The notes under the pieces were generated by a model. It was not told where the DNA came from. It did not search any database and saw only the letters and a list, made by a program, of their open reading frames with translations. Source: an uncultured Prochlorococcus sp. (GTDB lineage: Bacteria; Cyanobacteriota; Cyanobacteriia; PCC-6307; Cyanobiaceae). From it: a DNA stretch of 64,000 bases. The stretch lies in NCBI GenBank assembly GCA_902624085.1, contig CACNWD010000003.1, positions 23,045 through 87,044 of the forward strand, in the 5' to 3' direction. Made by a program: the position numbers and the translations under genes. Positions 6,717 to 14,500 of the stretch are shown here, one piece after another. Within the stretch, counting starts at the first letter, position 1. Each line of letters starts with the position of its first letter.

Positions 6717-9173
6717 ATGAAAGTTTCTCAAAATTGGTTAAAAGAGCTAGTCGATATAAATACTACGCCTGAACAACTATCCGAAAAACTATCAATTGGT
6801 GGGTTTGAAGTCGAATCATTAGTTGATACTTCATCTAAATTTAAAGGTATAGTATTAGGAAAAGTATTATCAGCAGAAAAACATAGTAATTCAGATAAAT
6901 TATCTATTTGTAAGGTAGATATTGGAACTGAGCAATTACAAATAATTTGCGGGGCAAATAACGTAAAGTCAGATATATTTGTGTATGTTGCCACGATTGG
7001 AGCATATCTAGAGAAAATTGATTTAACAATAAAATCAACTGAAATTAGGGGAGTATATAGCGAAGGTATGATTTGTTCTCTTGAAGAACTTGGATTTGAA
7101 AAAAAAAGTGATGGTATAGCAATAGTGGAGAAATCAGTTTATCAAAAATTTGAATTAGGTACACCAATTTCTGAATTATTAGAACTTAACGATTTTATAT
7201 ATGAATTAGCAATTACTGCTAATAGACCTGATGGAATGTCAATGATTGGAATTGCACGGGAAGTATCTGCATTATTACAAACTAAACTTACTGATCTGGA
7301 AATTACTGAAAATATATCAATAAATGAATTTCATCCACAGATAAAAGATACTAACTCAATCAATCATGATTCAATTTATTCAATAACAACTATTAGTAAT
7401 ATTAACGGAAAAAAAATATCACCAAAATGGTTGAAAGACAGACTAGAGAAATCAGATATTAAATCTATTAATTTAATTGTTGATATCACTAATTATATTC
7501 TTTTAGAACAGGGTCAACCATTACATGCATTTGATAAAGATAAATTATCAAAGTTAATAGGTAAAACTGCATCACAAAATGATTTTGGTATTAGAGATGC
7601 TAATGAGGGAGAAACTCTTCAGGGATTGGATGGCAATATTTATAATCTGAATAATAATATAACTGTTATTACATGTGCAGATATTCCTGTAGCAATAGCA
7701 GGAGTAATTGGAGGCCTTGAAACATCAGTTACTGATACAACAACATCAATATTTTTGGAAGCAGCTGTATTTAATCCTAGCTCTATTAGAAAATCATCTA
7801 AAGAAATTGGTTTAAGAACAGAATCTAGTAGTCGTTTTGAAAAGGGCATATCAAATAAAAATACAGTTCTTTCCATAAAAAGAGCTATTAAATTGTTTAA
7901 TGAATTTTTTAATATCTCAAACCAAAAGCTTTTTATATCAAAGAACGTTAGCGACAATTTAAAATTAATAAAATTACGAAGAGATAGAATTCACAAAATA
8001 TTAGGGCCAATAAAAATTAATAGTACAGAAAACAAAACTAATATAATTAAAAGAAATTTAAATGATAAAGAGATAACGGATAAACTAGAATTAATTGGTT
8101 GTACTTTAATAAATAAAAATTACGGATGGGATGTTGAAGTTGTACCTAATAGATCTCAAGACCTCTTCAGAGAAATCGATTTAATTGAAGAAATAGCAAG
8201 ATTAATAGGCTATGATTTATTTGATGAAAATATACCGAATCCTCTTTTTCCGGGAAAATTAACAAATTCTCAGAATTCAATTAGAAAAATTAGACAAGGA
8301 TTTATAAATTCAGGTTTTAACGAGGTATTAACTTATTCATTGGTACCTAACAGCAAAGATAATAGGATTAGGATTACAAATCCTCTATTGAAAGAGACAA
8401 GTTGTCTAAGAAATAATTTATGGGAAGATCATATAAAAATTGTAAATCAAAATATTAACTCAGGAAGTAGTAATTGTTGGATCTTTGAAATAGGTAAAAT
8501 TTTTACAGTCATAAATAATAATTTTATTGAAGAAGAAATTATTAATGGTGTAATTTGTGGGGAAAATAAATTTGAATCATGGGACAATTCTGGAAAAGAA
8601 AAGGAACTAGATTACTTTGAAGCAAGAGGAAAGCTAAGAGAAGCATTAGATTCACTAAAGATCACTATATTCGATAAAACTACTGAAAAAATACATTTTT
8701 TACACCCAGGAAGAACTGCATTACTATTTATTGAGGGTAAAGAATCAGGTTATTTTGGTCAAATTCACCCCAAATATAAGATGGAAAAAAATATCTCTAA
8801 AAATATATATCTCTTTAATATAAAACTTACTAATATTACAGAGGCATGTACAAGAAAAAACAAGTGGAATCCTGTTTTTAAAAATTACCCAACCGTACCG
8901 AAAATTGAGCGTGATATAAATTTTATATTTAATAAAAAATACTTTATTAATGAAATACTTACATTTATAAGGAAATCAGGCAAGAATTTATTGGAAGATG
9001 TAAATCTTGTAGATATATACACAGATGAATCATTAGGTAATGATAATGTTAGTTACACTTTTAGACTTACATATAGGGGACAAAATAAAACACTAAAAGA
9101 TTCTGACATTACTGAACTAAATAATAGTATTATTTCTAATATAGAAAATAAATACTCAGCGAAAATTAGATAA
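6717..9173 (+). CDS. pheT: phenylalanyl-tRNA synthetase beta subunit
   Basis: Full-length PheT (818 aa): tRNA-binding domain, B3/B4, B5 and C-terminal anticodon-binding domain. Confidence 0.96.
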   Translation: MKVSQNWLKELVDINTTPEQLSEKLSIGGFEVESLVDTSSKFKGIVLGKVLSAEKHSNSDKLSICKVDIGTEQLQIICGANNVKSDIFVYVATIGAYLEKIDLTIKSTEIRGVYSEGMICSLEELGFEKKSDGIAIVEKSVYQKFELGTPISELLELNDFIYELAITANRPDGMSMIGIAREVSALLQTKLTDLEITENISINEFHPQIKDTNSINHDSIYSITTISNINGKKISPKWLKDRLEKSDIKSINLIVDITNYILLEQGQPLHAFDKDKLSKLIGKTASQNDFGIRDANEGETLQGLDGNIYNLNNNITVITCADIPVAIAGVIGGLETSVTDTTTSIFLEAAVFNPSSIRKSSKEIGLRTESSSRFEKGISNKNTVLSIKRAIKLFNEFFNISNQKLFISKNVSDNLKLIKLRRDRIHKILGPIKINSTENKTNIIKRNLNDKEITDKLELIGCTLINKNYGWDVEVVPNRSQDLFREIDLIEEIARLIGYDLFDENIPNPLFPGKLTNSQNSIRKIRQGFINSGFNEVLTYSLVPNSKDNRIRITNPLLKETSCLRNNLWEDHIKIVNQNINSGSSNCWIFEIGKIFTVINNNFIEEEIINGVICGENKFESWDNSGKEKELDYFEARGKLREALDSLKITIFDKTTEKIHFLHPGRTALLFIEGKESGYFGQIHPKYKMEKNISKNIYLFNIKLTNITEACTRKNKWNPVFKNYPTVPKIERDINFIFNKKYFINEILTFIRKSGKNLLEDVNLVDIYTDESLGNDNVSYTFRLTYRGQNKTLKDSDITELNNSIISNIENKYSAKIR

Positions 9174-9413
9174 ACATAGAATCTACAAAGTATTACATGA
9201 GACTCGTGAATAGTCCAGTTATAAGTCTTAAACAAGATAAATGATTTACCTGTGATTCTTTTTTCTCATACAAGCAATTTGCTTAATTAAAAAGAAAATG
9301 GTAGCAAAGAAAAATATAAAATAATTAGCAAATATCGATTAAATAGTGGAGTACTGCCTATGAGACAGCTCATTATTCCATAAACATGTTTAATGTCAAT
9401 GATTCTCAGGTGT

Positions 9414-9419
9414 TATAAT
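9414..9419 (+). promoter_or_regulatory. candidate -10 box (TATAAT) within long spacer
   Basis: Exact TATAAT in AGGTGTTATAATATAATTGG; no convincing -35 identified. Confidence 0.3.
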
Positions 9420-9504
9420 ATAATTGGACAATAATAGGACAGGATCAAGGTAGAATTAATAACAAGAAAATTAATCTTATAATTCTCCTTTAAGACTTCT
9501 CAGT

Positions 9505-9521
9505 AGACTAGTTTCTAGTCT
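9505..9521. repeat. perfect hairpin AGACTAG-TTT-CTAGTCT
   Basis: 7-bp perfect inverted repeat, 3-nt loop. Confidence 0.9.
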
Positions 9522-9661
9522 TATATGCGACTAATTATACATTTTTTCTATAAATTCTTTTATTGAAATGCTCCTTGATATATGTCAGTAATATGCATTA
9601 TAAAATTGAATACTTTTATATCAATTTTTAAATTATATTAATGATAAAAATATAGCCTCAT

Positions 9662-9679
9662 TAGTCTAATATTAGACTA
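9662..9679. repeat. perfect 18-bp palindrome TAGTCTAATATTAGACTA
   Basis: Sequence equals its own reverse complement. Confidence 0.92.
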
Positions 9680-9685
9680 TCATCT

Positions 9686-9702
9686 AGACTAAGAATTAGT
9701 CT
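9686..9702. repeat. perfect hairpin AGACTAA-GAA-TTAGTCT
   Basis: 7-bp perfect inverted repeat, 3-nt loop, same AGACTA core as the two preceding elements. Confidence 0.9.
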
Positions 9703-9849
9703 TGTATAAGAATAATAAGACTACTATCTTACTTTTTAAAATTTTATTTTTTCCACTTTTATTATTTTTATTAATTATCATGAAGTGACAATACTATTTA
9801 AAAAGTGTCATTCTGTTCATCAAAAGAATCTAAAAGTTTTTTTCAAAAA

Positions 9850-9963
9850 ATGAAATTAGAAATGCTAAATAATATAAAAGATTCGTTAGAACGCAAAACT
9901 GCCTCAGTATTAGCTTCAATAGAAGTTCTTGAACGTCAAATTGAAAGAGACAATGAAAATTAG
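9850..9963 (+). CDS. candidate small protein, 37 aa (not in supplied ORF track)
   Basis: ATG..TAG: MKLEMLNNIKDSLERKTASVLASIEVLERQIERDNEN; amphipathic/coiled-coil-like, converges on the next gene. Confidence 0.5.
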   Translation: MKLEMLNNIKDSLERKTASVLASIEVLERQIERDNEN

Positions 9964-9967
9964 ACAT

Positions 9968-10798
9968 TTATAAATAATTCTCTAATAACCTCTCAGGTCC
10001 AAATTTTTTTAAATAATTTATATCTGATTTTTCTGTAACTAATATATAGCCAGCAAATCCAAGAGCATTAACACTAATCCCATATATATTATCTGTTTTT
10101 CTTTTTATTAGTAGCATCCATTGATTTGTAAAAATCAAATTATATGGATATCTTGGCTTTTTATCTATTTCGGGCTTTCCTAAACCTATTTTATATGATA
10201 AATCTTTGTAAATTTCGTAAATATTTTCTTTATTTAAAGTTTTTGAAAATTTTTTTAAAATTATACTTTTGTAGAATCTCTGATTTTTATAGTTTATATC
10301 ATCAAAGTCTAGAATCCATTTTTCTCTAGGACAAGATAACTGTGATGGATCTCTCCTTAACAATTGAATATGACGATGAGGTTGACTTGCACCTGCCAAA
10401 GGGCCGCTATTAAAAAACCACAAACCAGTTGTATCTTTATTAACTTCTTTTATAGCTTCCCAATCTTTGACATCAATCCATCCATTTTGTTCTTTCCATT
10501 CATTGGTAATTAAGAGTATATGTCCTAGTTGAACTGGATATTTATTTAAAATGAGTTGGTGGTTTTTTCCAATAGAATCAATTTCCAGAATATTATCCCA
10601 TGGTCTGAATGGATTAATTTTGGGTCCTATTAAAGTACTTTTTTTAAATTTAGTAATATCTAATTCACGAATAACAAAATCATTACCTTTATATAGTTTT
10701 TTTGTAATATCAGTTGTATGTAATGGAAATAAACTTTTAGAATTTATAGAGATCTTTGTTTTTTGCAAAGCCTTTTCCCAATATATTTCTTTCCTCAT
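9968..10798 (-). CDS. ATP adenylyltransferase (Ap4A phosphorylase family)
   Basis: NKYPVQLGHILLITNEW..., FFNSGPLAGASQPHRHIQLL histidine-triad-like motif. Confidence 0.88.
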   Translation of the reverse strand: MRKEIYWEKALQKTKISINSKSLFPLHTTDITKKLYKGNDFVIRELDITKFKKSTLIGPKINPFRPWDNILEIDSIGKNHQLILNKYPVQLGHILLITNEWKEQNGWIDVKDWEAIKEVNKDTTGLWFFNSGPLAGASQPHRHIQLLRRDPSQLSCPREKWILDFDDINYKNQRFYKSIILKKFSKTLNKENIYEIYKDLSYKIGLGKPEIDKKPRYPYNLIFTNQWMLLIKRKTDNIYGISVNALGFAGYILVTEKSDINYLKKFGPERLLENYL

Positions 10799-11596: not shown

Positions 11597-14500
11597 TTAA
11601 GTACTAAAATATTTCGCTTTTGAATGAAGAGAAACAATTGCGGTGGTACTCTGTTCTGGGTGTAATTGCTCAGATTCATCCATAGTAAGATTTATGCGAT
11701 CAGCATCTAGTAATAGTAGTTGAGCTTTTGAATCAGATACCTTAGGGCAAGCAGGATAGCCAAATGAGTATCTTGAACCTCTATACTTTTGGGAAAGTAT
11801 TTCTTTATTAGATATATTTTTGAAATCAGAATAACCACATTCATATCTAATTTTTGCATGTATAAATTCAGCTAACGCTTCGGCTAGTTGAACTGCTAAA
11901 CCATGAAAAATTAAGTAATCACTGTATTTATCGCTATTAAATAATTCTTGGGCAAATTCGCTGGCTATCTCTCCCATTGTTACAGCTTGCATTGGAAAAC
12001 AATCTATAGGCTTTCCTTCAACAAGATCACAATAAAAATCTGCTATGCACAGTTTGCTTCCAGAAACTTGTCTTGGAAATTCAAATTTCGCTAATTGTTC
12101 GATCTCATTCTCCTTAAACAAAACAATACTATTTTTATTTCTACCGCATTTAAAATAGCCATATACTGCTTGAGGTTTAATCAAATTTTTATCATTAATA
12201 ATATTGATCCATTTATTTAGTAATGATTCTGCATAAGATTCTAAGTATTCGTTATATTCTTCAACCGTTTGATCTTTATTCTTTTTAATTTGCCATTGTC
12301 CACTGAAAAGAGCCTTTTTATCAAGATAAAATAAAAGATCCTCGATTTCAATTTCTTCACGAGTTAATATTTTTGATCCCCAAAATGGAGGTTTTACTGG
12401 CTTTTCTTCAATTGCATATGAAGATCTATCTGTAGTTATAATTTTTTTTGATATTTTTCTATTAGTTGGAATTTTATTTGGTTTTTCCGAATTATATTTA
12501 TTAGTTTTTGTATCTGCTAAGTTTATACTAATATCTTCTTTATTTATAAAACCTTTATCATCAGACCAATTGCCTGTTTTTTTACTTTTCATATATTCAT
12601 TCATAAATTTAAGATCAGTGAAAGCATCCTTGCCATAGAGAATTTTTCCTTCATAAATTTGACTACAATCTTCATTAACAAATTTTGGTGTAAGTGCAGC
12701 TCCTCCTAGTATTACTGGTACTTTTATATTTGCCTCGTTAAATGCTGCAAGATTATCCTTCATAAATGCAGTTGATTTTACTAATAATCCGCTCATCGCA
12801 ATACAATCTGCTTCATGTAATTTTTGTGCTTCAATTATTGAATGAACATCTTGCTTAATTCCAAGGTTAATTACATCATAACCATTGTTAGTAAGGATAA
12901 TATCAACTAAGTTTTTTCCAATATCATGAACATCACCTTTTACTGTTGCTATTAAGAATTTACCTTTTGAGGAAGTATTTTCAGAAGTTTCCATGAATGG
13001 TTCTAATACTGATACTGCAAACTTCATAGTTTCAGCAGACTGTAATACAAAAGGTAATTGCATTTGACCAGAGCCAAATAAATCTCCTACAACTTTCATT
13101 CCATCAAGAAGAAAGGTATTTATAATTTCTAGAGGTTTATACTTTTTTAGTGATTTATTTAATAATTCCTCTAATCCTATTTTCTCTCCATCAATAATAT
13201 GGTTTTTTAATTTTTCTTCGAGGGTTAAATTATCTTTATTTTCTCCAATTTTATTTATATCCTTAATAGATAAATCTTGAAATACTTTTGTTAATTCTAC
13301 TAATGGGTCATATATGCATATTTGATCTTTAAAAATTCTTTTATCATAAATAAGATCTAGACATATTTTCTTTGTTTCATCACTAATTTTTGATAAGGGT
13401 AATATTTTATTTGGAGCAAGAATTGCAGAATCAAGTCCAGCTTTAATACACTCATCTAAAAATATCGAATTTAAATTTATCCTTGCCAGAGGTGATAAAC
13501 CAAAACTGATATTTGATATTCCTAGAATTATATGACAATTTTTAATTTTATTCCTAATACTTTTTATAGCCAAAATTGTTTCTTTGGCATTTAATCTATC
13601 TTCCTCAATTCCTGTTGAAATTGGTAAGGCTAAAGGATCAAAGAATATTTCATGATCAGAGATACCATTAATTCTTGTTTTATTTATAGCTCTTTCAGCA
13701 ATATTAAATTTTTTTTCTGAAGTTCTAGCCATTCCATCTTCATCTATAGTGCCAATTACTAAACCTGCTCCGTAGTTAATTGCTAAATTCATAACAGTAT
13801 TAAATCTTTCTTCACCATCTTCATAATTAGTTGAATTTATAATACATTTTCCGCCGGCAGTTTTTAAACCACTTTCCATTTTTTCGTGTTCGGTGGAATC
13901 AATCATTAAAGGTAAATTAATATTAGTTACTAATCTTGATGTGATTTCTTTCATATCTTTCACACCATCACGGCCAACATAATCAACGTTCACGTCTAAA
14001 ACATGTGCATTTTCCTTCTGTTGTTGTTTAGCTATAGAAATAAGACCATCCCAATCATCCTTATTTAACAAATCCCTTACTTTTTTTGAACCACTTGCAT
14101 TCAGTCTTTCACCAACAAGTAATATTGAATTATCCTGTTTATAAGGAACCGAATTATAAATAGAAGAGGATGATGGTATAAACACATTTTCTCTAACTTT
14201 ATTCTTTATTAAATAATTATCTTTTTTAAGTTCAGAAATAATTGAAGATAAATACCTTATATGCTCAGGAGTTGTCCCACAACATCCGCCAATTATCTGG
14301 ACATCATAATCATATATGAAGTTTAGCAATTGAACTTTTAACTCTAATGGAGTTAATTTATAGTGTGCTATTCCTCCAACATTTTCTGGTAAACCTGCAT
14401 TAGGTATACAACTAATAGCGAAAGGAGAATTCTCAGAAAGATACTTAATATGTTCTTTCATTTCTGAAGGACCAGTTGCACAATTAAGACCTAATATATC

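Follow-up and report, generated by a model that had tools for sequence, protein, structure and literature searches.

What are the palindromes that crowd the spacer behind pheT in this uncultured Prochlorococcus? The window, i.e. the whole stretch of 64,000 nucleotides that we analysed, had been described beforehand from its letters alone as holding three perfect dyads with the shared core AGACTA/TAGTCT (9505–9521, 9662–9679 and 9686–9702) and an extra half-site AGACTA (9718–9723), and we confirmed all four elements. Their perfection as such did not stand out, since DNA this rich in AT has many perfect dyads (21 in the window versus 13 in dinucleotide shuffles); what sets these apart is that they have a half-site in common and repeat it at regular distances. 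Of the 21 AGACTA/TAGTCT hexamers in the window, seven fall within 219 bp (Poisson probability ~1e-13, post hoc). The count against shuffled sequence, which the preliminary description had proposed, bore this out: the density of the cluster exceeded all 300 dinucleotide shuffles, none of which contained a cluster of seven and the largest of which reached five. Paired AGACTA/TAGTCT dyads numbered three, all at this locus, against 0.04–0.05 expected per window. The pattern AGACTA-N0–12-TAGTCT was found three times in the organism's own genome (incomplete, 1.06 Mb), and two of these were at the locus.

The half-sites AGACT/AGTCT and their near variants form three ladders with 11–12 bp steps in the spacer behind pheT, in both orientations. 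Further half-sites, at 9200, 9212 and 9224 and at 9493 and 9528, are in register with the elements described earlier. Between the first two ladders, H1 and H2, lies a core that the preliminary description did not include (9348–9441), formed by an inverted repeat, P, and a direct repeat, D. The features of the locus are as follows.

6717–9173, + strand: pheT, an open reading frame; its stop codon is followed immediately by the site, and the synteny is kept in the picocyanobacterial loci that have the site.
9200–9228, no strand: array H1, with AGACT at 9200, AGTCC at 9212 and AGTCT at 9224, in 12-bp steps and aligned with the H1 of relatives.
9348–9374, + strand: P, the putative recombination core, GGAGTACTG-cctatgaga-CAGCTCATT, conserved across the family.
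9425–9441, + strand: D, a direct repeat of the form TGGACA-N6-GGACA that follows P at exactly 50 bp, a spacing fixed in most relatives.
9493–9532, no strand: array H2, with AGACT at 9493, AGACT at 9505, AGTCT at 9517 and CGACT at 9528.
9663–9722, no strand: array H3, with AGTCT at 9663, AGACT at 9674, AGACT at 9686, AGTCT at 9698 and AGACT at 9718.
9850–9963, + strand: a conserved 37-aa open reading frame of unknown function, a marker for the far-side boundary of the locus.
9968–10798, − strand: an Ap4A phosphorylase-type gene (Pfam PF19327 and PF09830), a conserved neighbour and marker.

The palindromes that raised the question are therefore portions of H2, which includes the dyad at 9505–9521, and of H3, which includes the 18-bp palindrome and the dyad at 9686–9702, and they belong to a larger conserved site at the replication terminus.

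We searched 266 genomes of the genus, to which the genome that we take to be MED4 also belongs, for the arrays and found them in the spacer behind pheT. In the consensus of 48 high-light-type (HL) spacers, H1 is located ~20 bp past the pheT stop codon, H2 ~520 bp further, and H3 ~180 bp beyond H2. All Prochlorococcus genera examined had arrays in the same spacer, which in the other Prochlorococcus genera is closed by a convergent gene, RHH-J. The arrays are confined to this one locus, and elsewhere we observed isolated matches with one mismatch. Across 29 low-GC spacers there were 319 AGACT/AGTCT half-sites versus 126 in shuffles, and the distances between them peaked at 12 bp (66 versus 0.1) and at 11, 23–24, 32, 35, 44 and 55 bp. 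In the majority of 200 genomes of the genus, the 37-aa open reading frame retained ~78% DNA identity over ~125 bp, and it gave tblastn matches in Prochlorococcus genera. P was present in 32 of the 41 sampled genomes of the family outside the genus, compared with 1 of ~328 other genomes in a sample of the phylum, normally once per genome; it is essentially single-copy in Prochlorococcus, Synechococcus and Cyanobium. The open-access literature that we searched contained no description of the site.

P is a 27-bp inverted repeat composed of two 9-bp arms and a 9-nt asymmetric centre, with the inner arms CTG/CAG in the window. In low-light Prochlorococcus, Synechococcus and freshwater relatives it reads GCGTA[A/C]CTG-N9-CAG[T/G]TACGC, and in HL strains GTAGTACTG-TCTTTAAGG-CAGTACGGG; an example with 9-bp arms and a 9-nt centre is GCGTACCTG-tgtctacag-CAGGTACGC. 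Its orientation relative to pheT is constant. The P-D pattern occurs once in the window and in 0 of 100 shuffles. P-D is present in Prochlorococcus and in most Synechococcus loci. The gap is 50 bp, rarely 51–52 bp, over unconserved intervening sequence in most HL, low-light and window-clade spacers, and 50–52 bp in the Synechococcus loci that retain D; in some Synechococcus, e.g. WH7803, no D was recognisable. A second P-like match in one genome (G328) lacked D and is probably due to chance. In some low-light strains, the P arms are lengthened to a perfect inverted repeat of 25–27 bp whose outer parts are unrelated in sequence, a pattern that would be expected if palindrome correction or selection for a hairpin operated there. 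Two such cases, with coordinates in the pheT-to-RHH-J spacer, are the following.

1972–2030 of the L246 spacer, pheT orientation: extended P arms.
1778–1832 of the L272 spacer, pheT orientation: extended P arms.

In ten closed genomes representing six genera, the locus is found at 47.9–52.4% of the chromosome from dnaN. In one HL genome (G050), the T-A skew at fourfold sites was positive between 680 and 860 kb and turned negative past 860 kb, with the site at ~882 kb, that is, ~20–25 kb from the flip; the GC skew of a second genome (G204) was unreadable in a scaffold assembly with runs of N and mixed polarity. The distance from dnaN, supported in part by skew, therefore puts the site at the replication terminus. 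In G015, which we take to be MED4 (NC_005072), P occupies 829,201–829,227 of 1,657,990, within 0.3 kb of the midpoint at 828,995. An independent re-analysis of published MED4 vesicle DNA counted 92,377 and 186,179 reads in the 826–832 kb interval, against a median of 0 elsewhere, and the highest peak was reported to lie "directly at the dif site" (PMC10913375). The text of that report, as we consulted it, gives no dif sequence, and its 826–832 kb interval is centred on the midpoint. The MED4 copy of P falls inside this interval, and would offer a molecular anchor for the as yet unexplained abundance of terminus DNA in Prochlorococcus vesicles. Overall, we are highly confident that the locus is conserved, that it marks the terminus and that it functions at the DNA level.

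The large dif survey by Kono et al. predicted no dif in any of its five cyanobacteria (PMC3025954). P, like dif, is present in one copy per chromosome at the terminus, and has the layout of the ~28-bp dif core, with inverted arms and a short asymmetric centre. The closest parallel is with single-recombinase systems (XerS-difSL, XerH-difH, XerL-dif of Legionella, archaeal XerA). In these, a single tyrosine recombinase serves one inverted-repeat core near the terminus, ~28 bp long and asymmetric at its centre; here, the core is of that kind and a lone recombinase is the candidate enzyme. The Legionella XerL-dif is mimicked by the mobile element LME-1 (PMC9765430; the single-recombinase systems are reviewed in PMC5357621). 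The picocyanobacterial core nevertheless differs from these in its unrelated sequence, and comparison by eye with the dif sequences listed in PMC2410131 revealed no arm in common. It also differs in the extra D at 50 bp and in three further arrays, whose 12 or more half-sites exceed the requirements of any described dif. Unlike for XerS and XerH, the recombinase gene is not beside the site, and the candidate enzyme has an extra N-terminal region. In the XerCD plasmid sites cer and psi, accessory DNA that binds proteins flanks the recombination core on one side. The present site resembles them in combining a core with accessory DNA, although its arrays are larger, chromosomal and built on another half-site. 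A site that works like a single-recombinase dif would be the best account of the locus. We consider it probable that the locus serves picocyanobacteria as a dif-like site for chromosome-dimer resolution, with the build of a phage att site, at which recombination would take place.

The candidate enzyme is a lone tyrosine recombinase of 387–389 aa, present once in each of the ten genomes of the genus that we checked, with weak Phage_integrase and XerA-like scores. The catalytic R-K-H-R-H-Y motifs were identified by eye in an alignment (A2). Window-clade and HL versions of the protein share 69% identity; the figure for the C-terminal 250 residues of PheT is 55–62%. Its N-terminus gave no match to a Pfam arm-binding domain. 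The AlphaFold model (mean pLDDT 46, too low for a fold search or for testing the domain assignment) has three N-terminal strands and a helix at low confidence, an arrangement that hints weakly at an arm-binding domain. Among phages, we found a distant relative of the recombinase in PSS2 only. The closest plasmid-borne relative, with 29–33% identity over the full length including the N-terminus, is encoded on a 13-kb Picosynechococcus plasmid (L447). There, next to its gene, GGACT at 12957, 12964, 13084, 13094 and 13104 and GGACA at 13113 flank a putative tRNA 3′ fragment in an attP-like arrangement, and such a six-repeat GGACT/A cluster arose in 2 of 500 shuffles. The homologue on a Microcystis plasmid had no clear repeat cluster. 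Because D is built on the half-site GGAC(T/A), which is close to the (A)GACT of the H arrays, D, and probably H as well, may be read as arm-type sites of this recombinase family. The link between enzyme and site is indirect, through a common half-site and their joint presence in about 12 genomes. The Picosynechococcus plasmid, with its integrase and the attP-like region (L447:12950–13153), may be an integrative phage or satellite.

A phage attP with arm-type sites, of the lambda Int or Tn916 Int kind, likewise combines a core with short direct repeats at helically phased distances, and the GGACT repeats on both sides of the attP-like fragment of the plasmid extend the likeness. Here, the P-D distances are 50–52 bp in hosts and ~42, 52 and 64 bp in phages. 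In contrast to a phage attP, the host site is chromosomal, single-copy, at the terminus and vertically conserved, with neither a prophage nor an adjacent integrase.

Phages carry host-matched copies of P-D. Exact P was found in 83 stretches of viral contigs, and a D-like repeat lay within 30–72 bp of 20 of the viral-contig P sites, compared with a background of 0.7%. The distances group at 42–44, 51–55 and 63–65 bp, or about 4, 5 and 6 helical turns. The contigs include ones with T7-like RNA polymerase or terminase genes. The MED4 phages P-SCSP1a, which has no annotated integrase, and P-SCSP1u have a P of the HL type, followed by D at a distance of 53 bp; in a viral contig (L389) whose terminase is 80% identical to theirs, P is of the Synechococcus type and D is 42 bp away. 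Exact HL-type P was absent from the viral contigs, the two isolates having a variant, and the match between the P centres of phages and hosts was inexact. In P-SCSP1a, the P-D unit and GGACT/AGTCC half-sites are intergenic and adjoin the terminase genes (L435:36500–37000). P-D was absent from seven other T7-like cyanophages: the four integrase-bearing isolates P-SSP7, Syn5, S-SRP01 and P-SCSP2, and also P60, P-RSP2 and R27W. Integrase-bearing T7-like cyanophages integrate at tRNA-Leu (PMC8776855). In the host genomes, we saw no integrated phage copy, recombination event, duplicated P or insert at P. We infer that phages use P-D for integration, and the site would then be the predicted point of entry into the host chromosome for cyanophages that lack an integrase.

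In the mechanism that we propose, the catalytic part of the lone recombinase would bind both arms of P, and the RGAC(T/A) repeats, those in D and probably those in the H arrays, would be bound by its N-terminal domain, possibly with a helper protein. The looped complex would swap strands between two sister copies of P, so that, as replication ends, a dimeric chromosome is resolved into monomers. The P-D mimic of integrase-less T7-like cyanophages would presumably exploit the host enzyme. The complete scenario, in which a domesticated phage-type integrase resolves dimers at an att-like terminus site (P with the arm-type arrays D and H1–H3) and integrase-less T7-like cyanophages enter the host terminus by a host-matched copy, is put forward tentatively, at somewhat short of even chances. 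For phototrophs that rank among Earth's most abundant, the analysis supplies the exact sequence of a site, together with a candidate enzyme and an architecture open to testing.

Among the alternatives, a site for terminus organisation, segregation or fork arrest (like MatP/matS, a centromere or Tus/ter), at which a structural protein binds the arrays and no strand exchange takes place, survives best, yet we judge it unlikely. The terminus location and the many helically phased half-sites agree with such a role. RHH-J, a protein of 337 aa that starts with a ribbon-helix-helix region and ends in a J domain (L064:3091–4104, − strand; loci L218–L225 and L234–L313), is an alternative candidate for the array binder, and its gene borders the arrays in nearly all picocyanobacterial genera. 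However, the gene is missing from the whole window clade, which keeps H2, H3, P and D. The likeness to MatP/matS, which lies in terminus-specific palindromic sites and, in most genomes, a nearby ribbon-helix-helix gene, also has its bounds: the array matches are at one locus, where MatP/matS has many sites across the terminus, and the gene is dispensable in the window clade. Moreover, the arm-centre-arm layout of P is that of a recombinase core, and phages mimic it.

RNA-level hairpins behind pheT, acting as terminators or as processing or stability elements, are considerably less probable. They would account for the perfect dyads, for P arms reaching perfect inverted repeats of 27 bp in some strains, and for the fact that, in HL strains, H1 and H3 directly adjoin two convergent genes at their 3′ ends. 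The alignment of relatives' spacers, suggested in the preliminary description, showed that the arrays are conserved, but in 45–48 HL sequences the paired positions had no compensatory change beyond independence. Near-invariant half-sites amid variable surroundings, with no such compensation, indicate protein-binding DNA and not an RNA stem. The arrays folded weakly better than shuffled sequence (z of −1.9 and −0.5), the terminator and promoter scan found nothing above chance and no terminator-like site, and Rfam and tRNA scans of the window returned two tRNAs only. The P stem of the window clade has a conserved C-A mismatch, which an RNA hairpin should not keep. The P-D distance is held constant over unconserved sequence in hosts and grouped by helical turns in phages, and the site occurs once per genome, at the terminus. 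The RNA processing or stability array proposed earlier is accordingly disfavoured.

The proposal of a multi-site operator for a dimeric regulator fared better in one respect. A dimeric DNA-binding protein with multiple sites fits best of the three roles first suggested, because the half-sites are invariant, 11–12 bp apart, in both orientations and uncompensated. A promoter operator is unlikely, because the spacer lies behind pheT, mostly with a converging gene, at the terminus and with a P-D core. The box of MetJ, a ribbon-helix-helix protein, is AGACGTCT. The half-site AGAC/GTCT resembles it, and a ribbon-helix-helix gene is adjacent in most genomes, so that an array regulating a neighbour (RHH-J autoregulation, or pheT) could be envisaged. 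We give this slightly less credence than RNA hairpins: the arrays are behind the stop codons of both genes, away from promoters, and an RHH-J operator was rejected because the window clade keeps the arrays without the gene. A small interspersed palindrome family, the remaining suggestion, is excluded by the restriction to one locus, where REP-like elements would have many genome copies; a former mobile or repeated palindromic element left by chance behind pheT, which the repeated perfect dyads and the related DNA in phages might recall, is extremely improbable for a single locus with synteny conserved across many genera and no dispersed copies.

Two further conserved elements accompany the putative dif-like site. 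In HL strains only, an 82-aa conserved open reading frame with no family matches lies between H1 and P, and its stop codon overlaps P (L064:2422–2670, + strand). In the window clade, a strongly conserved stretch, TTTCCACTTTTA...ATTAATTAT (~9750–9782), precedes the 37-aa open reading frame.
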